Both the position numbers and the translations under genes were made by a program. The notes below the pieces were generated by a model. It saw only the letters and a program-made list of their open reading frames with translations. It made no database searches and was not told the DNA's origin. From Methanococcoides burtonii DSM 6242 (GTDB taxonomy: Archaea; Halobacteriota; Methanosarcinia; Methanosarcinales; Methanosarcinaceae), in assembly GCF_000013725.1 (NCBI RefSeq), contig NC_007955.1, positions 2,139,579-2,203,578 of the forward strand: 64,000 nucleotides of DNA. Direction: 5' to 3'. Numbering within the stretch: the first letter of the stretch is position 1; every line of letters starts with the position of its first letter. This document shows positions 5,217-32,985 of the stretch, piece after piece.

Positions 5217-6024
5217 TTTTCTAACTCCAACTAAGCCACTCATTTTTATAATAAGAAGTCCCCTGTGATTGTTCTCCAACTAAAACACAAGAGAATGAAT
5301 GTGTTTGTTCCAAATTATAAATCTGGAACTCCCATTAGATCTACGATTTAATAGCTTGTCTAACAAGTACTTAAAATTTATCGATATAGCATTACAAATA
5401 ACAAGATATTCACGCTTTCCACTTTATAGCTGTAGATATTCAAAACGAACTTACACACAAAATCAGCTATTGACACTGATTTTGTTTAAGGAATATTTAG
5501 GTGAAGATTATAGGGATTTTGTTGATTTCGTAGAACTTATGGATTCTGTCCAATCAAAGATTGAACTAAACAAGGTACCGCATTATACTACACTTCAAAA
5601 ATTTGTAACTCGTACATATTCTGTTGTTTTGGATTCGATCTTTAAAAGAACACTTGACCTATTTTATAAAAATAGAGACTCAATTGATATTACTGCAATT
5701 GATTCCACTGGGTTCACAAGTGGTTATTGTAGCAATTATTATTCCTGGCGAATTAAAAAGTGGAGGCGAAGTTATGTAAAGACCAGCATTTCGGTTGATG
5801 TTAGTAAATTTGTAATCACTGGTTACAAGATTTCTGGAAAACCAGTTCATGATGCAAAACATGCAAGTGCGACAAGAAGCTAAAACATGAATTGCGGCAA
5901 CGCTATCCCTTCCATTTGGGATAATCCTACTATGATATGCGTCAATGGTAACGTTGGGGTGTAAAGCTCATAGGACAATGTGGAGAAATTCGGAAGTCTA
6001 ATCTGAATCATCTGCTAGGATAAG

Positions 6025-6853
6025 GTGCGACAAGAAGTTATAACATGAATTGCGGCAACGCTATCCCTTCCATTTGGGTTAATCCTACTATGACACGCGC
6101 CAATGGTAACGTTGGGGTATGAAGCTCATAGGACAATGTGGAGAATCTCGAAAGTCTAATTCGAAACATCCACTAGGATAAGAACACTAAGAAGAAACGA
6201 AAGTTGAACCATTGTAAGAATCGTAAAGCAGAACAAGCGAAATTAGATTGATTACGCTTGAACCAAAAGGTACAGAATCCGACCATTATGGCTCTTATCA
6301 CATTATGGGAAATGGACACATGATTCTCGGTTTATAGATGGCTTCTAAGGTCTTCGCAATTATTCATGTTATAGAACTTGGTAAGCCCTATATGTTCCCT
6401 TCGGGGTAGGAATCCTGCAAAGAATGACGATGACATAGAGGGTAGAGGAAAGGAGTAGAAAGCGAATGACAAACTGTAATGGTGTGTATAAGGGTTCAAA
6501 ATTTGCCCTAATCCGAAAGGATGCAGACTTACTCTATGGTATCAAAACGTAAGAAGGAAGGTATGACCTATGAATGTAAGCTATTCAAATACATCAAAAG
6601 ATGAAGCAAAAACACTGTTTAGTGGACATGCTGAACTTAACGATGAGAAACTTACAGACATGTAACACATGTTAATAGGCTACAAGTCAGGATTACGAAG
6701 GCAGTTATTGAAGAAAATTGGAATTTGCAATTAATTCCAAAAACAATAACTGTTGCCTGAAAAGGTTATGAGATGCTTGAGCTGTATGAAAGAAAACTTT
6801 CACGTACAGTTCTTAGGCGAGAAAGAGGGAGTAATCCCTCTGACTTAGCCGAC
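6025..6853 (+). mobile_element. Inner group II intron copy, ORF-deleted, nested in the outer intron
   Basis: A second GTGCG start at 6025 begins a near copy of the outer intron 5' region (5867-6024), and GCCGAC at 6848-6853 repeats its 3' end. On each side the outer sequence is continuous: CTAGGATAAG before 6025 and AATACTAAG after 6853, matching uninterrupted CTAGGATAAGAACACTAAG within the inner copy. Its domain V survives near 6778-6810. Only the first codons of the reverse transcriptase remain (from about 6570), joined near 6730 to the sequence just after the ORF, so most of the gene is deleted. Confidence 0.85.
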
Positions 6854-7239: not shown

Positions 7240-8970
7240 ATGAATGTAAGAATTTCAAATACACCAAATAATGAAGCAGAAGCCCTTAGTGGTCATGCTG
7301 AATTAAATGGTGAGAAGCTTACAGATATGCTCAACTGGAATTTCATCAATTGGAGTTCCGTTGAATCACATGTTAATAGAATACAAGTCAGAATTACGAA
7401 AGCAGTTATTAACAAAAATTGGAATTTAGTAAAAAAACTAAGTTATTTGCTAACCCATTCTCACTATGCTAAACTGTTAGCTGTCAGAAAGGTTATTCGA
7501 AATAAGGGTAGAAGAACAGCAGGAATCGATGGAGAATTCTGGTCAACACCAGTTTCCAAAGTGAATGCGGCTCGAAGTCTATCTGATAAAAGATATAAGG
7601 CAAAACCATTAAAAAGAATCTTTATTGAGAAATATGGTTCTGATAAGAAGCGACCTTTAGGTATCCCGACCATGTACGATAGAGCTATGCAAGCATTATA
7701 TGCATTAGCACTTGACCCCATTGCAGAAGTAACAGCAGATAAACGTTCTTTTGGATTCAGAAAATTCAGAAGTACACATGATGCTTGCAGTCAAATTTTT
7801 GGAACAATAAGCAAAAAGGATTCTGCACAATGTATACTGGAAGGCGATATTAAAGGTTGTTTCGACAACATCAGTCACCAATGGTTAATTGACAATATCC
7901 CAATGGATAAATCAATTCTTAAACAATTCCTCAAAGCAGGATTTGTTTATGAAAATTCTCTATTTCCAACGAAAGCAGGAACACCACAAGGCGGTATTAT
8001 ATCACCAATATTAGCCAACATGACCTTAGATGGAATTGAAGGTGTATTGGCTGACAAATATCATCGAGGTGTAAGCGGTAAAATAACAACTCGTCAACGT
8101 GCAAAACACAAAGTTAATTTTGTGCGATACGCAGATGATTTTATTGTTACTGCAAAGACTAAAGAAATAGCAGAAGAAGCAAAAGAATTGATTAAGAATT
8201 TCCTAACGGATAGAGGTTTAGAACTATCTGATGAAAAAACCCTTATTACTCACATCGATGATGGTTTTGACTTTTTAGGTTGGAATGTCAGAAAATACAA
8301 AGGAAAACTTCTCATAAAACCGTCTAAGAAATCTATCAAGAAAGTAACTGAAAAAATCAGTAATACTATCAAAGATGGAAAAACTTGGACACAAGAAGAT
8401 TTAATCTCTAAACTTAACCCTATCATAACTGGATGGTCAAATTATCATCAAGGAGTGGCTTCCAAAGAAACATTCTCCTTAATTGATTTTAAGATATGGA
8501 ATATACTTTGGAAATGGGCTAAGAGAAGACACCCCATGAAATCAAGAACTTGGATTGCACACAAATACTGGCATCCCAAAGGAACGAGGAAATGGGTATT
8601 TTCAACAATGAAAAACCAACTTAAATTAATGTCAGATAAAATGATAGTTCGAAACCCACAAATAAAACTGGATAAGAACCCTTACACTGACACCGAATAC
8701 TTTGTTGAACGCAAGCTCAATCAAGGTTCTAAAAAGTTATTAGGAAAGTTTAAAACCGTATGGAAGAATCAAAAAGGCAAATGTCCGTTTTGTAATCTAT
8801 TGATTGACATTAACAACGGTGGAGAGGAACGCCCTTTACATCATAAAAATGGAAATCATGACGATAATGGAATAACAAACTTAGTTTATGCACATGTATA
8901 TTGTCATAGACAATATCATGCAAATAATCCAAAAATAACTGTTGCCCGACAAGGGTTAAGAGATGCTTGA
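7240..8970 (+). CDS. ltrA: Group II intron reverse transcriptase/maturase with HNH endonuclease
   Basis: The 576-residue multifunctional intron protein contains reverse transcriptase blocks with the active site FVRYADD, a maturase domain X (around FDFLGWNV and ITGWSNYHQG) and a C-terminal HNH domain (CPFC, LHHKNGNHDDNG, YCHRQYH). It assists splicing and carries out target-primed reverse transcription. All key motifs are intact. ATG at 7240 is preferred because the inner intron copy keeps this start while its upstream frame is broken; an in-frame ATG at 7192 would add 16 residues. The ORF ends inside the start of domain V. Confidence 0.95.
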   Translation: MNVRISNTPNNEAEALSGHAELNGEKLTDMLNWNFINWSSVESHVNRIQVRITKAVINKNWNLVKKLSYLLTHSHYAKLLAVRKVIRNKGRRTAGIDGEFWSTPVSKVNAARSLSDKRYKAKPLKRIFIEKYGSDKKRPLGIPTMYDRAMQALYALALDPIAEVTADKRSFGFRKFRSTHDACSQIFGTISKKDSAQCILEGDIKGCFDNISHQWLIDNIPMDKSILKQFLKAGFVYENSLFPTKAGTPQGGIISPILANMTLDGIEGVLADKYHRGVSGKITTRQRAKHKVNFVRYADDFIVTAKTKEIAEEAKELIKNFLTDRGLELSDEKTLITHIDDGFDFLGWNVRKYKGKLLIKPSKKSIKKVTEKISNTIKDGKTWTQEDLISKLNPIITGWSNYHQGVASKETFSLIDFKIWNILWKWAKRRHPMKSRTWIAHKYWHPKGTRKWVFSTMKNQLKLMSDKMIVRNPQIKLDKNPYTDTEYFVERKLNQGSKKLLGKFKTVWKNQKGKCPFCNLLIDINNGGEERPLHHKNGNHDDNGITNLVYAHVYCHRQYHANNPKITVARQGLRDA

Positions 8971-9002
8971 GCTGTGTGAGGTGAAAGTCTCACGCACGGT
9001 TC
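8969..9002 (+). ncRNA. Group II intron domain V of the outer intron
   Basis: This 34-nt hairpin has the catalytic AGC triad in GAGCTGTG, a GAAA tetraloop and the closing CGCACGGTTC strand. It is the most conserved part of the ribozyme and is intact. Confidence 0.85.
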
Positions 9003-9406
9003 TTAGGCGAGAAAGAGGGAGTAATCTCTCTGACTTAGCCGACAGACATTGCTATCGCAATGTCATCACAATAGGAGATCAAGATATTATATAATGGATA
9101 AAGCCTATGATTCTGAAAAATACACGAATTGACGAGGGAAAAACTTGGATCAATAGCAATTGTTCCATTGAGACAACGTGAATGAAAGCGAATCAAAGAA
9201 AGATATCGTAAGAAAATGTCACGGGAATTCGATAGCAAGATATACTCTATGCGGAATTTGAGTGAAACGATGTTCTCGGTTTTGAAAAGAAAGTATGGAG
9301 AAAACTTGCGTGCGAGAAAGTATAGAAATCAAGTAAAAGAAGTGAAGTTCAAAGTAATATTGCACAATCTTGACAGATTTGTCAAGACTGTGTTTTTAGT
9401 TTGGAT

Positions 9407-21248: not shown

Positions 21249-21381
21249 GGGCTATGGATAAATCCTCAATATTCGGACACTAATCCAATTTAAAAATATT
21301 ATGGGATGTACTGCATGATGTTGGAATCGAATCCCACTTTCAGTCTAAATATGTTGATTTTGATAGGTTTTCTACAGAGCC
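21249..21381. mobile_element. 133-bp MITE, copy 1 (left edge of island)
   Basis: The right end is TTCTACAGAGCC, the same terminal sequence as the IS at 5199-9424. The left end (GGGCTATGGATAAATC) is a decayed version. A second copy at 32077-32207 is about 90 percent identical and in the same orientation. The inner part keeps an open frame on the + strand (ILWDVLHDVGIESHFQ) that ends in the same Ser-Thr-Glu-Pro as the IS transposase, so the MITE may be a deletion product of a related IS. Confidence 0.75.
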
Positions 21382-25560: not shown

Positions 25561-26004
25561 TTAGGAATACTGATCTATGAAGTTTTGTGCTGCATTCAGT
25601 AAATCGACCAACTCGTTGTACAACCAACTGGCAATCTGCGAGCCCCAGTAATTTAATATTTGCCATATTATGGATACGGCTTCTGAAAGGTAATCCAAAC
25701 CGTTGGTTATATTGTCATTTCTGAATTCTTCAGCAGCATCAGTTAGTTTATCTTGAGCTTGGCCTATTCTATTGTCATCGATAACCTGATCTAAAGCCCA
25801 AAGTGCTGCAAGCAATCCGTCACAAATTGCTTCACCTGTAGTTCCTACTACTGATAGTGGTGTTATTTCACCGTCATCAGCCATTTTTAGTTCATTTACT
25901 ACATCTTGTGCTGGCTGTGCACTCACGGCCGGTGCAAACGCCATGCTCACCAGCAGCATTGCTGTTAGCAGCGCACCTATTCCAGATTTTATATTGATTT
26001 TCAT
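25561..26004 (-). CDS. Secreted helical protein, candidate bacteriocin precursor or partner
   Basis: The 147-residue protein has a clear Sec signal peptide (hydrophobic core AMLLVSMAFAPAVSA, probable cut after residue 29). A short acidic segment and a helical rest follow, ending in a strongly amphipathic, tryptophan-containing stretch (AVSIIWQILNYWGSQIASWL). It contains one cysteine. It heads the operon with the ABC exporter. Its promoter is built like that of the 12-cysteine precursor at 29099-29731, so both are probably expressed together. No family is recognised. Confidence 0.6.
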   Translation of the reverse strand: MKINIKSGIGALLTAMLLVSMAFAPAVSAQPAQDVVNELKMADDGEITPLSVVGTTGEAICDGLLAALWALDQVIDDNRIGQAQDKLTDAAEEFRNDNITNGLDYLSEAVSIIWQILNYWGSQIASWLYNELVDLLNAAQNFIDQYS

Positions 26005-26033
26005 TCTTTCTTTACCTCTTTGATTTATTTAAA

Positions 26034-26133
26034 CCAAAGGCAAAGCTATGTTTATATAGTGTAAACTGCAAACTTAACCTTACCTTTGGGTATACGTGGA
26101 GTTCTGGTTGGTTACCAATTATCTGAACTCCAC
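26034..26133 (-). promoter_or_regulatory. Promoter with two inverted repeats before the secreted helical protein
   Basis: CCAAAGGCAAAG (26034-26045) and CTTACCTTTGG (26079-26089) form an inverted repeat around a TATA-like stretch (near 26050-26058). Further upstream GTGGAGTTC (26096-26104) and GAACTCCAC (26125-26133) form a perfect second pair. The same arrangement occurs at 29757-29857. The sites look like operators for a shared regulator. Confidence 0.7.
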
Positions 26134-26615
26134 ATTCTAAATGATACATTATACTAGTTCTATTTATAATTGGTGACCGTGATTTGCGAATATAGACTTT
26201 TATTTTAGATAAAAGAAGTATTTATCATAATATCGAGTCAATTTATATGTTACTTGTATATAAATGGGCTATTTTCGATCATATGATTCCAAAATATAAA
26301 AATCACTCTCTATTTGATGGAACATCTATGATCGCGATTTGAGCTTCAAACGATTTCCCTCTCATACAAAGACCGTTTTTTCGGGAGCTGCAGCCAGCGG
26401 CCACATCATATTACAAATGCCGATCTATCCACATATTTTCGGCATTGGACCAACCCCGGGCAAACAGAAAAAATCAATTATGTGAATAGGCTATTTGTCC
26501 AGAGTGATAAATATGCAGGGATATGGAAGAAGTAACTTGTATAAGTCCATAGATTACCCACATAAAAAGTGAAGACGCAATGTTTTATACCATAGTTTGA
26601 TCTATTTCCTTCACC
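26134..26615. other. Intergenic region with a decayed copy of the small divergent ORF
   Basis: From about 26320 to 26540 the sequence resembles 30040-30255. One + strand frame keeps DLSFKRFPSHTK, then FSGAAASGHIILQMP, and ends GKQKKSIM before TGA at about 26479, as the intact copy does. It lacks a good start codon and has an upstream TGA. This copy is therefore probably broken, or uses a start I cannot see. The rest is AT-rich. Confidence 0.5.
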
Positions 26616-27593
26616 TCAGATCATAACCCATAAACCCAACAAAACAAGGGATATTCCACTGATTAATTTCAGGTATCTCTTGTGCTCACGAACATGTTTG
26701 GATAAAGTATAACCTCCAACCAACCCAATTCCAAGGAAAGGTGTCAATACTCCAAAACTAAAAGCAAACAATAGGGCTAAATCACCAATTGTCCCTTCTG
26801 TAAATGTTTTGTTCAGCAAAACCAGAAGCATAGGTACAGTGCACGGCACTTTTACCAGAGAGAACAAAACACCCAGGAAAAATAATCCTCCAATTGTACC
26901 GGCATGTTTTCTGGCCTTGTTCTGGAAATATTTGTCGAGGGACATCGGTAGACTGAAAAATCCCATCAGGTACAGTCCGATTCCAATAACTATGATTCCT
27001 GTAACTACAGAAAACAATTCCATGTCAGGGAGTGTCTTCCTGAATACAAGCAACCCCACTCCTATGGCGAGGTAGGAAGTCATCAATCCGACACCAAAGA
27101 CTATTGCTCGTTCCATGCCGCTGCGGGCAGACTCGCTGGTACCGGCTGTAAAACTCAAAAGAAATCCAAGTATTGCCATTAAACAAGGGGAGAATCCTGC
27201 AAACAAACCAAGTGAATAAGCAAACGGAAGATTCAGATCACTGTTTATGTACTGGTTTTCAGGTTTATTGTCCTTAAGATATTTCTCAATTGATAATCTC
27301 AGTTTTTCTTCAGTTATTTCTTCCTTTGGGATTTTAGTTTCATTATTTATGACAACAGCCGGAACCTCAATAAAACCATACTGATTCCACTGTTTGAATC
27401 CCTCAGTGTTTATGACATCAGTTCGCACAATTTCTACGTATTCATATTGTTTTTCGATTTGATCAATAATGGGCTCTGTTATCTCGCAGTCATGACAGCC
27501 GGTCTGGTGGAAATATTCTATCTGTATTGGTTGCGCAGCAGATATGGGGATGGACAGGAGAAGAATAGAAAAAAGAAGAAAAAAGAATCTCAT
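26616..27593 (-). CDS. Thioredoxin-like/CcdA fusion, DsbD-type thiol-disulfide oxidoreductase
   Basis: The 325-residue protein starts with a signal peptide (to about residue 20) and an exported thioredoxin-like domain with the redox pair CHDC (Cys33 and Cys36). It then has a CcdA/DsbD membrane domain of six helices with a conserved FSPCLMA and KVPCTVP cysteine pair. It moves reducing or oxidising equivalents across the membrane. In this operon it probably sets the disulfides of the 12-cysteine secreted protein. Its ATG overlaps the upstream stop (ATGA). Confidence 0.88.
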   Translation of the reverse strand: MRFFFLLFSILLLSIPISAAQPIQIEYFHQTGCHDCEITEPIIDQIEKQYEYVEIVRTDVINTEGFKQWNQYGFIEVPAVVINNETKIPKEEITEEKLRLSIEKYLKDNKPENQYINSDLNLPFAYSLGLFAGFSPCLMAILGFLLSFTAGTSESARSGMERAIVFGVGLMTSYLAIGVGLLVFRKTLPDMELFSVVTGIIVIGIGLYLMGFFSLPMSLDKYFQNKARKHAGTIGGLFFLGVLFSLVKVPCTVPMLLVLLNKTFTEGTIGDLALLFAFSFGVLTPFLGIGLVGGYTLSKHVREHKRYLKLISGISLVLLGLWVMI

Positions 27594-28765
27594 CCTTTTA
27601 TTCTCCTTAGTATTATGAGGATACCCAATGCTCCTACCAAAGGTGAAATACCGAGTGGTATTTGTTCAGATGCTGATTGAGAAGAGATGTCAATTGTCTC
27701 GATTGTATTTTTAAGATCCACTACTGCATTTGCTTGCTCTTTTGCAATCAAAGAATTACGTATGGAAGTGTCTGCAAGAGGTATGGAACTTGTTGAATCT
27801 TTTATTTTGGCTTCCTCTAACCTTATTTTTGCCATTTCAAAATGAAGTACCAATATAGGAGCATCAATTTCAGGATTACTAAAGAGTATGCTCAGAGATT
27901 CATTTGTATTTTCCATTTGTCTTTCAGCGCTACGTATGGCATCTTCGTGATCTACAACATTTTTATAGTTAATTCCAAAATCAGCCAGAGCTTTAGCTTC
28001 TGCTGCATTCATAGTTGCCAAATAGTATCTTTCTGCGGAATAGTGCTGCTTTGCAGTTTCCAATATCTTTTCGGAAGAGGTGAGTATATCTTTTCGGTTT
28101 CCCGAGTCACTAAATATCTTTATTTGTTCATCTGCAACCTGTATCCATTTGGAAGCGGTTTTATCTCCGTCTTCAGTTCTCTGGATGTGGTTTATTTTTG
28201 AAGACTCATTGTTCTTAAGTTTTGCAATATTTAACAAATTTTCTGCCTTATATATGGCGAAATTTGATTTAGTTAATGTTTCCAATGTACCATTGAAATT
28301 TTTATTATCATAATTCTCTTGAGAAATAGATAAATAATGTCTACTTTCTTCGAACTCATTCTCAGCAAGAGAAAGCCATTCCATTCCTGAAAAGCTTAAA
28401 TTATTTTCATTTAGACCTGCTAATTGTTCAACGATTTCATTATGTTTGTTCTCAATTTCATCAAACGTGTCATCAATAACGATTTTGGTTCCATGAATAG
28501 AGGCCATGTCATTCATGTCCATTTTCATAACAATTCTACGACATTTTAATGCTAAACTATAAGTGTAAAATGGATATTCTGTATTGTATTCATAAGACTG
28601 AGTATAAAATTCATTCAATGGTAAAGTCGAGTTGTTTTGATAATAAAATGATAATTCTGATATCTCTTTTGAAGATAAGTTGTAAAATACATTTTCTTCA
28701 GAAGCTGCCGGAACTATTAGCATAGTCGTAATTACAAATAAATAAAGCAGTTTGTTAATATTCAT
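27590..28765 (-). CDS. Secreted, C-terminally anchored helical protein
   Basis: The 391-residue protein has an N-terminal signal peptide (cut near AASEE, residue 22) and a long helical, charged body without cysteine pairs. It ends in a single hydrophobic helix followed by RRIKG, so it should be anchored outside the cell. No named sorting motif is clear. It lies between the small membrane protein and the oxidoreductase in the precursor operon. A chaperone, immunity or docking role is possible; the family is not recognised. Confidence 0.65.
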   Translation of the reverse strand: MNINKLLYLFVITTMLIVPAASEENVFYNLSSKEISELSFYYQNNSTLPLNEFYTQSYEYNTEYPFYTYSLALKCRRIVMKMDMNDMASIHGTKIVIDDTFDEIENKHNEIVEQLAGLNENNLSFSGMEWLSLAENEFEESRHYLSISQENYDNKNFNGTLETLTKSNFAIYKAENLLNIAKLKNNESSKINHIQRTEDGDKTASKWIQVADEQIKIFSDSGNRKDILTSSEKILETAKQHYSAERYYLATMNAAEAKALADFGINYKNVVDHEDAIRSAERQMENTNESLSILFSNPEIDAPILVLHFEMAKIRLEEAKIKDSTSSIPLADTSIRNSLIAKEQANAVVDLKNTIETIDISSQSASEQIPLGISPLVGALGILIILRRIKG

Positions 28766-28777
28766 AAAATCCCCTTT

Positions 28778-29065
28778 TTATTGGATAAAGTATGTTGCTA
28801 TAATTACACCCGAAATACCGCAAATAAGACATAATATTGCGAATAACACTGATTGGATTGCCGTCCATTTTCTTTCTCTCGCAACTAGGTAGAGATATAT
28901 ACCACTCAAAAACAGAATTGGTGAAAAAATCGATTCATACATTGATAATATCTCAAATTTTAAAAAAAAGTAGTCTAAGATTATTTTAAATATATCGATC
29001 AAAATTGTGGCGAACATAAAAAGTAGAAATAACTGTGAAGGTTTGTATTGTTTGTAGCCAATCAT
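28778..29065 (-). CDS. Small membrane protein next to the cysteine-rich precursor
   Basis: This 95-residue protein has three hydrophobic helices and a short basic loop (VARERKW). ATG 29065 follows a good GGAGG. It is the first gene after the cysteine-rich secreted protein, a usual place for a bacteriocin immunity protein. That function is inference only; the sequence shows no known domain. Confidence 0.6.
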   Translation of the reverse strand: MIGYKQYKPSQLFLLFMFATILIDIFKIILDYFFLKFEILSMYESIFSPILFLSGIYLYLVARERKWTAIQSVLFAILCLICGISGVIIATYFIQ

Positions 29066-29098
29066 TATCGTAATCCTCCGAAAAAGAAAAATGCTGTA

Positions 29099-29731
29099 TT
29101 AACATACAGCCTGGCAAATTGCATCACAGTAAACGGTTATGTCCATGTAACAAATCCCGAAGCATATAGCAACGCATGCTACATATCCAACACCAGTTGG
29201 ACCAAGGGCTAGACAAAGGTATGGACAGGATGCACCACATCCCATATTTCCCAAATCAGAGCATGTGTCTTCGCATTTTTCGTAACAGTCAATACTTTGC
29301 GTTGTTACCATCCCGGAAGCTGAATCATATACAGTTATTTCACCACTTTTAGATGTGGGATCTCCTGCAATATTTACAGATACTTCGTGCCCTTTATCTG
29401 AGACTAATGATACGTGGTATCCACCAACTACCATTGAAGAAGTTCCACTCCATACTTCTGTTATTTCATAATCTTTCGAGATGTCGTAAAGTTTAAACGA
29501 ACCAGCAGATTCTTGGTAATTGAATATAAATCCATCTGTGTCTGGATTATTTGAGATGGTATACTCTTCAGGTAGGCTTATTTCATCTGAGACTACCTTC
29601 AATACTTTCTTTTCATCTGACTTGTCTATGGGTTCTTGTGGTGCACATGCCATAGCGGGTGCTACTGCGAACATACTCACAACTAGCATTGCCATAAACA
29701 ACGCTGCCATTCTAATTCCTTTAGTTTTCAT
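29099..29731 (-). CDS. Secreted precursor with halocin C8-like cysteine-rich domain (candidate archaeocin)
   Basis: The 210-residue protein has a Sec signal peptide (cut near AMACA, residue 29), a beta-rich middle region (30-145) and a C-terminal domain of about 62 residues with 12 cysteines in the style of halocin C8 (starts CYEKCEDTC, contains MGCGASCPYLC and ends CQAVC). Halocin C8 is cut from a precursor whose N-terminal part gives immunity; the same split is plausible here. GGAGAG precedes ATG 29731. It heads an operon with a membrane protein, a secreted helper and a disulfide oxidoreductase. Antimicrobial action is untested. Confidence 0.7.
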   Translation of the reverse strand: MKTKGIRMAALFMAMLVVSMFAVAPAMACAPQEPIDKSDEKKVLKVVSDEISLPEEYTISNNPDTDGFIFNYQESAGSFKLYDISKDYEITEVWSGTSSMVVGGYHVSLVSDKGHEVSVNIAGDPTSKSGEITVYDSASGMVTTQSIDCYEKCEDTCSDLGNMGCGASCPYLCLALGPTGVGYVACVAICFGICYMDITVYCDAICQAVC

Positions 29732-29756
29732 ATCTTTTATCTCTCCAATTTAATTA

Positions 29757-29857
29757 CAAAGACAAAGCTATGTTTATGTAATATAAATGACAAATTAGCT
29801 TTGCCTTTGGGCTAATGTGGAGTTATGTTTGTTTAACGCACATCCGAGCTCCACATT
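29757..29857 (-). promoter_or_regulatory. Promoter with two inverted repeats before the cysteine-rich precursor
   Basis: CAAAGACAAAGCTA (29757-29770) and TAGCTTTGCCTTTG (29796-29809) flank a TATA-like stretch on the minus strand (near 29779-29790). AATGTGGAG (29814-29822) and CTCCACATT (29849-29857) form a perfect second inverted repeat upstream. Sequence, order and spacing match 26034-26133, so the same regulator probably binds both. Confidence 0.72.
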
Positions 29858-29998
29858 ATATATTACGTTACACTGAGTCTACTTATACCTTTGTGCCAGA
29901 TATTTTTAAATGTGTGCCTATTTTTTCGATAATAGATATTTAAATTGTAATATGTGATTAATTTAGTTATTATATGAATTTTAAGTTCATATTATTGT

Positions 29999-30199
29999 AT
30001 GGCAAATCTAACTATAAACAAAGTACTCGATTTAGTGAAAAACCAAAATGACCATTTGAGCGTCAAAAGATTTACCGCTCATGCAAATGCTGCTTTTTCG
30101 GGAGCTATGGGCGACGGTCGCATTATATTGGAAATGCCGCTTTTCTGCATATTTGGGGCACCATGTGACTTTGGCAAACAGAAAAAATCAATTATGTGA
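29999..30199 (+). CDS. Small divergent ORF, conserved in two copies
   Basis: This frame encodes 66 residues (MANLTINKVLDLV at the start, GKQKKSIM at the end) and is divergent from the cysteine-rich precursor. A second copy in the same relation to the other secreted protein keeps the frame over about 45 codons (FSG-A...IIL-MP...GKQKKSIM), with many differences at DNA level. That supports past coding function. There is no signal peptide, no helix of membrane length and no known domain. A ribosome-binding site is not evident. Confidence 0.45.
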   Translation: MANLTINKVLDLVKNQNDHLSVKRFTAHANAAFSGAMGDGRIILEMPLFCIFGAPCDFGKQKKSIM

Positions 30200-30547
30200 A
30201 TAGGCTATTTGTCCAGAGTGAAAAATGTGCAGGGATATGGAAGAAAAAATACGATTTTCTTACACATCTACAATTAAGTGAAAAACCTTGTAAATCTTCC
30301 TTTTTCTTTTCGGATCAACTCATTGCTTAGTTTAAACTATATTGGTCTCAACAAAATATAGTTAAAATTTTAGTTTTTTTAATTAGAATGTAGTAAACAT
30401 GAATAGATTGTTATTTTTCATCATTTAGTATGGAAAAATCTTAAATCACTTTCAGTTCTGACATAATTTTGAGGTGTTAGAATAACTCATAAAAATCCAT
30501 ACATATCAGTTCTAAAACTAAAAGGAAGTATTGTAGATATTTCAGTA
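30200..30547. other. Intergenic region before the UbiA gene
   Basis: The first 55 bases continue the repeat shared with 26480-26540 (AATAGGCTATTTGTCCAGAG). The rest is AT-rich without a gene. From 30482 a frame in register with the UbiA gene is open and looks like its N-terminus (NPYISVLKLKGSIVD), preceded by GAGGTG at 30471-30476, but it contains no ATG, GTG or TTG. Confidence 0.45.
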
Positions 30548-32076: not shown

Positions 32077-32207
32077 GCTCTGTTGAAATACTCTATATTC
32101 GGACACTAATTTAATTTGAAAATATTATGGGATGTACTGCATGATGTTGGAATCGAATCCCACTTCCAGTCTAAAGATGTTGATTTTGATAGGTTTTCTA
32201 CAGAGCC
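32077..32207. mobile_element. 131-bp MITE, copy 2 (right edge of island)
   Basis: It has terminal inverted repeats AGCTCTGTTGAAA and TTCTACAGAGCC. It is a direct repeat of the MITE at 21249-21381 and shares its end with the IS at 5199-9424. No clear target duplication can be read (GAAATAAT to the left, GAAAATGC to the right). It abuts the histidine kinase remnant. Confidence 0.78.
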
Positions 32208-32985
32208 GAAAATGCTTTAATTGATACTAAAATGGCAGCACAAGAAGCTAACCGTGTCAAATCTGAGTTCTTTGCAAACATGAGCCATGAACTAAGAACT
32301 CCTCTGAATTCTGTTATTGGTTTCTCCGATCTCCTTCTTGAAGGGACTTTTGGGGAACTGAACGCTAAGCAGGAAAAATATGCTATGAACATTCAGGAAA
32401 GTGGTACTCATCTTCTTAATATCGTCAATGAAATCCTTGATATATCCAAAGTAGAATCGGGAAATATGGATCTGAGCTATGAAAATGTCTCTGTCCTTGA
32501 AGTTATTGACAATGTTATGACTATGATATCTCCTCTGGCAAAGAAGAAGAATATCACCATTTCTCAGAATGTTGATCCGAACTCAATAAAAATTGTTGCC
32601 GATAGGGGCAAGGTCATCCAGATGCTTTAAATCTTGTAGGAAATGCGGTCAAGTTCACTCTGGATAATGGTTGTATCGATATTGGAACAAAAGTTACCGG
32701 AGAATATCTCGATATATTCATTCAGGACACTGGCGTAGGTATCTCAAAAGAGGATCTGGATAAATTATTCGATCCATTTGTACAGTTGGATTCGTCAGCA
32801 TCGAAAATGTATAAGGGTACAGGTCTTGGTCTCGTCAAAAAGTTTGCGGAATTGCATAGCGGTATGGTTCAGGTGGAAAGTTAGCTTGGAAAGGGCAGTA
32901 CTTTCACTTTCTTAATTCCTCTGGAAAATGAAGATTCTTTACCTGATATGGACCAAGATCCCGTCATTCATAAAAGAAGATGCTG
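32208..32985 (+). pseudogene. Histidine kinase, 5' truncated and frameshifted (right edge of island)
   Basis: Right after the MITE the coding sequence begins inside a kinase: AANRVKSEFFANMSHELRTP carries the phospho-accepting His of the HisKA domain. After a frameshift near 32629 (IQML then NLVGNAVKF) come the N and G boxes (DTGVGISKEDLDKLF, GTGLGLVKKF). TAG at 32882-32884 interrupts VES-LGKGSTF. The sensor part is lost at the MITE. It is a dead gene. Confidence 0.82.

Follow-up and report, generated by a model that had tools for sequence, protein, structure and literature searches.

What has been copied when two related short open reading frames (ORFs) lie in one archaeal chromosome, each divergent from a gene for a secreted protein? 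The question is posed by a stretch of 64,000 nucleotides (nt) from Methanococcoides burtonii DSM 6242 (hereafter the window), in which an earlier note had seen two frames with the same C-terminal end, GKQKKSIM, and had proposed that ORF, promoter and secreted gene were duplicated together, the ORF being either a signalling or regulatory peptide or a decayed mobile fragment. Our analysis indicates that the duplicated unit is most likely a control module of secreted-protein genes, the conserved part of which is a structured 5′ leader on the opposite strand that the earlier note overlooked. The explanation as a whole (a duplicated control module, a leader overlapped by an antisense RNA, a switch acting on translation and a small ORF that is non-coding) is one that we consider likely.

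The duplicated module and its small open reading frame

The two frames are present and related. Copy B carries an ATG frame of 66 codons; the copy A block (26320–26485, plus strand) has the same GKQKKSIM end and no ATG, its only frame being one of 48 amino acids with a TTG start. In a genome search the pair scores 163 bits (expectation value, E, 7.5e-41), far above chance, and the alignment spans the signal-peptide region of the secreted gene, the 5′ leader, the promoter and the divergent block that contains the small ORF. Duplication of the whole module had thus been proposed correctly and, if anything, understated, as all of these parts are copied and further copies exist. A third copy is found in the M. 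burtonii genome (G000, C1:1437164-1437596), ahead of another secreted gene. Three more, two full and one shortened, occur in G009, a sister genome from the same genus. The third G000 copy and the shortened G009 copy have an identical deletion junction and so look like duplications of the whole module. Among the 99 relatives searched, the full module occurs only in G000 and G009, whilst its first ~147 nt, corresponding to the 5′ leader, also occur in two genomes from a different genus, each of which has several copies. The divergent block is likewise confined to the leader modules of G000 and G009, besides two matches (25 and 44 nt; E ~5e-4) in G016 and G056, and has the same position relative to the leader in all six copies. 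A comparison of the block with loci from G130, G124 and G128 at word size 7 gave short matches only, with E of 0.012 or weaker, so the block is not common to those loci at that sensitivity. On contig C126 of G009, a regulator, a UbiA-like gene and the module have been duplicated together (L024 and L029, ~9 kb apart), the secreted gene in L024 being apparently frameshifted.

The 66-codon frame is not the conserved unit, a conclusion that we draw strongly. The likeness of the two ends noted earlier is real as sequence but fails as protein conservation: a 73-nt block that is 97% identical between the copies extends ~46 nt beyond the stop codon, and GKQKKSIM is common to both because the underlying DNA is shared. 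Over 87 ungapped nt of the six copies, variable sites fall 15/9/11 on the three codon positions, with no third-position excess, and the ratio of non-synonymous to synonymous differences (pN/pS) in the ORF frame is 1.03, against a column-permuted mean of 0.80 (standard deviation 0.29; 249 of 300 permutations gave 1.03 or less); with only six related copies, the power of these tests is low to modest. Consensus folding of the divergent block is weak on both strands (z -2.8 and -2.6) and is not counted as support for a structured RNA. A second frame (VNRLFVQS..., 30196–30330, plus strand) runs over the ORF stop codon and is open in copy B and one G009 copy and short in copy A.

Could the small ORF encode a real, fast-evolving peptide after all? 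Copy B has its ATG and frame 0 is open across the tested block in five of the six copies, with an in-frame stop in one. Against this stand the pN/pS value and codon-position counts, the conserved stretch that crosses the stop codon, the lack of an ATG in copy A and the ends of both full G009 copies, which read LDK-stop in place of GKQKKSIM; scans of Pfam and NCBIfam returned no family above cut-off for the ORF product. Ribosome profiling in Methanosarcina mazei finds the homologous RNA sRNA162 (discussed below) strongly represented and free of ribosome coverage, though sRNA162 lacks this block. We accordingly set the peptide gene aside as very improbable. The idea of a decayed mobile element that has travelled with the module would fit a block that is found in several copies per genome in G000 and G009 only and that lies near repeats of another kind with inverted ends. 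This, too, we reject as scarcely credible, since no terminal inverted repeats were reported around copies A and B, no transposase was matched in Pfam or NCBIfam, all six copies sit in one place relative to leader modules of G000 and G009, and the deletion junction found in two copies points to duplication of the module as a whole. The small ORF is most likely not a gene, and there are two readings of the stretch that holds it: a neutral remnant, or the tail of an antisense RNA that extends this far. The suggestion that the secreted gene is halocin C8-like fared no better, as the copy B protein has no halocin-family match in Pfam or NCBIfam.

A two-hairpin leader ahead of secreted-protein genes

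On the minus strand of the module lies a 5′ leader of ~116 nt that comprises two consecutive hairpins, P1 and P2, and precedes the secreted gene. When the six module copies are folded to a consensus, z is -11.3 for the mRNA strand, -8.2 for its complement and ~0 for the linker. Each of the first 17 leaders examined lies ahead of a signal-peptide gene, and the window copies, too, show the two covarying hairpins directly ahead of such a gene that define the family. A covariance model (R1), built from 15 leaders of four genomes in two genera, recovered both copies that had been left out before building (L016 and L015). At E≤0.01 it finds the leader in 54 of 111 genomes of the family Methanosarcinaceae and in nine of 14 genera, with up to 13 copies per genome.

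The link to secretion, which we computed from 100 fetched matches (hand-picked among the larger number of R1 matches listed, none of them in the training set), is close: a signal-peptide-like ORF follows directly in 94 of the 100, compared with 47 of 180 control ORFs judged by the same rule, a control set that still includes leader-bearing genes. The leader ends a median of 17.5 nt before the start codon (10–90% range 15–21; 13–24 nt in most members). Beyond the signal peptide the downstream proteins have little in common: the ten scanned comprise two clear metallopeptidases (one matrixin-like, one reprolysin-like), one with a sub-threshold peptidase match and seven without a match. The relationship also holds in reverse, with R1 directly upstream in seven of eight loci found by similarity to the copy A protein, two of these being weak (E 0.03–0.05). 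L143 (G039) and L156 (G130) are exceptions to the rule, the leader match there being followed by a 147-amino-acid ORF without a signal peptide. On JAHDSE010000158.1, a contig labelled Syntrophomonadaceae that may be misbinned and archaeal in origin, a leader match (L209) precedes the gene for a relative (61%) of the copy A protein.

The leader is not confined to the family. Of 237 class genomes, R1 matches 59 at E≤0.001, including 14 from beyond the family, and a second model (R2), built from the enlarged alignment A4 (101 rows, of which one, L099, is a partial opposite-strand row), matches 97 of the 237, in 18 of 39 genera, as well as 77 of 392 genomes in a draw from the phylum, 28 of which lie outside the class. 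In the home genome R2 finds 17 places, two of them weak, and all 17 are followed by a signal-peptide-like ORF; the same is true of 13 of 15 order-level matches and of 27 of 30 matches outside the class, the latter taken from 46 listed matches in 20 genomes preselected for matching R2. In G131, which belongs to genus g7, at least seven leader matches lie together in 28 kb (G131:C1:2844580-2872908), a cluster of leader-bearing genes.

Over the 100 fetched matches the median minimum free energy (MFE) is -42 kcal/mol and the median folding z is -4.7, and in the 100-row alignment, which was fitted to the model, double changes affect 21 of the 28 pairs and amount to 257 cells, versus 77 in shuffles (a level reached in 0 of 500). 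We considered whether this is an already known leader family and rejected the idea: no Rfam leader family matches the window leaders at gathering scores, and a search with 20 distinct leader loci at E≤5 or E≤1 returned nothing beyond sRNA162, which lay on the other strand, and a scatter of families with low scores. Taken together, these results argue strongly for a genuine class of leaders that goes with secreted genes.

A predicted antisense RNA and a proposed switch

A member of the class has been studied from the other side. In M. mazei, sRNA162 measures 191 nt, of which the 5′-most 65 run antisense to the 5′ untranslated region of MM2442; both start sites have been mapped, both promoters have TATA boxes and binding has been shown in vitro (Jager et al. 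2012, PMC3510493). The same paper describes sRNA171, a measured homologous RNA at a duplicated locus for which its authors suggest a duplication in M. mazei, and the portion of the text available mentions homologues in two other Methanosarcina species only. A 39-nt single-stranded linker in sRNA162 is described as masking the ribosome site of MM2441 in trans.

The window corresponds to the MM2442/MM2449 locus. Two sRNA162 matches exceed 200 bits in genome G130 (probably M. mazei), where the genes are ordered as in the window, with an ATP-binding cassette (ABC) ATPase, a DsbD-like protein and the copy A protein being 78, 66 and 61% identical, respectively; the match of the copy B protein to a cysteine-containing secreted protein of G130 is weak (23%, E 7e-6). 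As at MM2442, an antisense RNA would start inside P2 and cover the first ~65 nt of the leader, P1 is palindromic and the locus is syntenic with a homologous copy A protein; unlike it, the window copies have no match to RF02792, the Rfam model of sRNA162, and the published pair is presented, in the text seen, as one locus and its duplicate. The leader at the sRNA171 locus in G130 precedes the homologue of the copy A protein. With two leaders at corresponding places in the window, the pair may be older than a duplication within M. mazei. In G130, the MM2442-like gene has a TTG start with a Shine–Dalgarno sequence 140 nt after the mRNA start deduced from the published overlap, and an in-frame ATG 42 nt further downstream, at 182 nt, near the published 184. 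Since its authors saw no ribosome site ahead of the annotated MM2442 start (PMC3510493), the upstream TTG may explain why the gene seemed to lack one.

Signs of an antisense promoter extend across the class. When the antisense strands of 99 leaders are scored for a TATA box, the peak falls at -26 to -28 relative to the sRNA162 start; it recurs in 14 order-level and 22 phylum-level leaders (36 usable of 43 loci entered). RF02792 matches 29 of the 111 family genomes, mostly in genus g7 (by inference Methanosarcina). Of 12 loci in which sRNA162 scores above the RF02792 threshold, 11 have an R1 match on the opposite strand, at scores from 33 down to 18 bits, some of them weak; the twelfth, in G124, has similar sequence and no R1 match. 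Eight further overlaps taken from the hit lists are all antisense, by 59–66 nt, and below threshold the sRNA162 model falls opposite three leaders, always starting inside P2. We have good grounds for regarding the antisense promoter as a conserved part of the leader class. In the window the predicted overlap is ~58 nt and both TATA box and position fit the sRNA162 pattern, from which we infer, with moderate confidence, that the two copies are expressed as sense/antisense pairs.

The consequence of such pairing may lie in P2, whose 3′ arm (GCCTC...) is complementary to the Shine–Dalgarno sequence (GAGGT, AGGAG and others). Once matches without a clear arm, Shine–Dalgarno sequence or start had been dropped, the mean duplex energy was -9.54 for cognate pairs and -8.11 for permuted ones (0 of 2000 permutations, n=95). 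A CTCCT arm coincides with an AGGAG site in ten of these 95 leaders, one of the two occurs singly in three and seven, and neither in 75. Follow-up permutation sets comprised 92, 83 and 35 leaders, and the effect is repeated more weakly in the order and phylum set (27/2000, n=35); it is absent from a control window placed beyond the start codon (878/2000). When the antisense-covered part was blocked in folding (analyses of n=90 and n=87), mean pairing of the arm with the Shine–Dalgarno sequence rose from 0.19 to 0.87 and the probability that the latter is unpaired fell from 0.56 to 0.07 (n=87); controls gave 0.72–0.74 with swapped tails and 0.12–0.18 with shuffled P2. Both window copies have a complementary arm, copy B being the weaker case, with a pairing of 0.74 on blocking.

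From this covariation and the rise in pairing on blocking we propose an off-switch. The minus strand of the module would be transcribed into the ~116-nt two-hairpin leader followed by the start codon of the signal-peptide gene. A promoter inside P2 would fire the other way, its RNA being antisense to the first ~58–65 nt of the leader, that is, P1 and the outer 5′ arm of P2. Folded alone, the leader would keep the 3′ arm of P2 occupied and the Shine–Dalgarno sequence mostly open; were the antisense RNA to take the 5′ arm, the freed 3′ arm could pair with the Shine–Dalgarno sequence and translation would be turned off. The small ORF would sit ~200 nt downstream of the antisense start, in the stretch limited to G000 and one sister genome. 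Strong pairing is also predicted for some combinations of antisense and leader from different copies; one such combination reaches -125.7, cognate pairs averaging -121.4. Cross-control among copies is therefore possible. The switch and its direction are put forward tentatively.

Several observations weigh against this proposal or parts of it. RF02792 has no match in G000 at E≤0.01 and none in the window at gathering (78 bits), so that the antisense RNA is here deduced from position and promoter, and the antisense TATA box of copy B is imperfect. The scan for a TATA box on the mRNA side gave no clear peak relative to P1, for which reason the mRNA start is argued from the published MM2442 start and by eye. 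The 15 leaders from close species show changes on both sides at only two pairs, and six of the 100 fetched matches lack a signal-peptide-like ORF (two frameshift-like cases, one contig end, two non-signal ORFs and one case of start choice). Another control window, +18 to +33, scored 17/2000, and relatedness inflates the permutation tests. Much of the pairing needs only a common Shine–Dalgarno sequence, as swapped tails still pair (0.73). The authors of the sRNA162 study themselves call its effect on MM2442 unknown (PMC3510493).

How else might the leader work? It could act without antisense control, the hairpins stabilising the mRNA or binding a protein or ligand that coordinates secreted genes, with the TATA-like stretch of P2 as a loop motif. 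The strong folds, the attachment to signal-peptide genes and the conservation of P1 and P2 sequence beyond pairing among close species would all suit this idea. We nevertheless think it unlikely: the spacing between the TATA peak and the mapped sRNA162 5′ end is canonical, the peak reappears in the order and phylum sets, sRNA162 and sRNA171 are measured RNAs, and R1 lies opposite sRNA162 in nearly all loci compared. Alternatively, the antisense RNA might act by degradation, by interference with transcription at the promoter or by activating translation. The sRNA162 paper names translational repression with degradation, transcriptional interference and promoter occlusion, and reports slightly lower MM2442 mRNA on overexpression of sRNA162 (PMC3510493). 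Here the covariation of the P2 3′ arm with the Shine–Dalgarno sequence and the change in fold on blocking favour masking of the ribosome site, and we view these other effects as doubtful.

The proposed leader system can be set beside others known elsewhere. The plasmid copy-control RNAs CopA and CopT likewise have complementary hairpins in sense and antisense RNA; in contrast to these, the leader family has no plasmid replication gene and is chromosomal, multi-copy and placed ahead of secreted genes. Riboswitches and other Rfam leaders resemble it as structured 5′ leaders choosing between two pairings near the ribosome site, and differ in that the proposed trigger here is an RNA and no Rfam leader family is matched.

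Features of the window and wider meaning

The coordinates of the elements discussed are collected below.

Features of the two module copies (positions in the window)
Feature	Position	Strand	Basis
Frame of 66 codons, copy B, judged non-coding	29999..30199	+	ORF list, copy comparison, pN/pS
Related copy A block, TTG frame of 48 amino acids, judged non-coding	26339..26485	+	ORF list, copy comparison, pN/pS
Best-conserved divergent stretch, through the stop codon (copy A partner 26459–26531)	30173..30245	+	97% identical
Secreted cysteine-rich protein, 210 amino acids, copy B gene	29099..29731	-	ORF list; weak match to the G130 protein behind an sRNA162-overlapped leader
Secreted protein, 147 amino acids, copy A gene	25561..26004	-	ORF list; 61% identity with the protein that follows the sRNA171-like copy in G130
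5′ leader RNA, copy B, two hairpins	29749..29864	-	R1 116.6 bits (in training set); consensus folding z -11.3
5′ leader RNA, copy A	26027..26143	-	R1 119.1 bits (in training set)
Hairpin P1, copy B; being palindromic, it folds in the predicted antisense RNA as well	29813..29858	-	Folding; double changes in an alignment of 100 distinct rows
Hairpin P2, copy B; 3′ arm complementary to Shine–Dalgarno, loop holds the proposed antisense TATA box	29755..29811	-	Folding, covariation, arm/Shine–Dalgarno tests
Hairpin P1, copy A	26092..26137	-	Folding, alignment
Hairpin P2, copy A	26033..26090	-	Folding, alignment
Proposed mRNA TATA box, copy B, upstream of leader	29880..29889	-	Read from sequence; no clear positional peak in scan
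Proposed mRNA TATA box, copy A	26160..26169	-	Read from sequence
Shine–Dalgarno GGAGAG, copy B gene	29741..29746	-	Sequence
Shine–Dalgarno GAGGT, copy A gene	26014..26018	-	Sequence
Proposed antisense TATA box, copy B; imperfect match, centre ~26 nt before 29803	29774..29781	+	Sequence; family-wide peak at -26 to -28
Proposed antisense TATA box, copy A, TTATATAG	26052..26059	+	Sequence; family-wide peak
Predicted antisense RNA, copy B; start from sRNA162 homologue, end carried over from the 191-nt sRNA162 length	29803..29993	+	Position, homology
Predicted antisense RNA, copy A; end assumed likewise	26082..26272	+	Position, homology

Elsewhere in the window, a 131-nt repeat (21251–21381 and 32077–32207, 92% identical) has inverted ends, which at the second copy read GCTCTGT... 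and ...ACAGAGCC, and resembles a miniature inverted-repeat transposable element (MITE) or the remnant of a small insertion sequence. Directly after the second copy, a 132-amino-acid frame with a HisKA domain (32232–32630, plus strand) is apparently a piece of a broken histidine kinase. Parts of group II introns score at Rfam gathering level at 5904–6206, 6777–6853 and 8967–9043 (plus strand), and Intron_gpII is matched twice, which points to a nested arrangement or to a second copy of the intron.

What was known before is one sense/antisense pair and its duplicate in M. mazei. As far as the text of the sRNA162 paper seen here goes, the leader is not described there as a repeated class, as specific to secreted genes or as an anti-Shine–Dalgarno switch (PMC3510493), and in the open-access literature, mostly at the level of titles and the opening of abstracts, we found no paper describing it as a class ahead of secreted genes. 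To that extent the leader class, its link to secreted genes, its spread and the covarying switch are new.

A broader reading is that many secreted genes of Methanosarcinales and of further groups in the phylum share a leader class with a built-in antisense promoter, forming secretome-wide RNA switches that are sometimes set by the antisense RNA of a sister copy, with sRNA162 as one studied member of a class present in at least 97 of 237 class genomes; we find this almost, if not quite, as easy to believe as to doubt. If true, the one archaeal antisense RNA studied so far in this setting would become part of a testable regulatory class covering many exported proteins of methanogens, with a concrete mechanism that can be addressed by defined mutations, and the leader would offer a natural tool for controlled secretion in these organisms.

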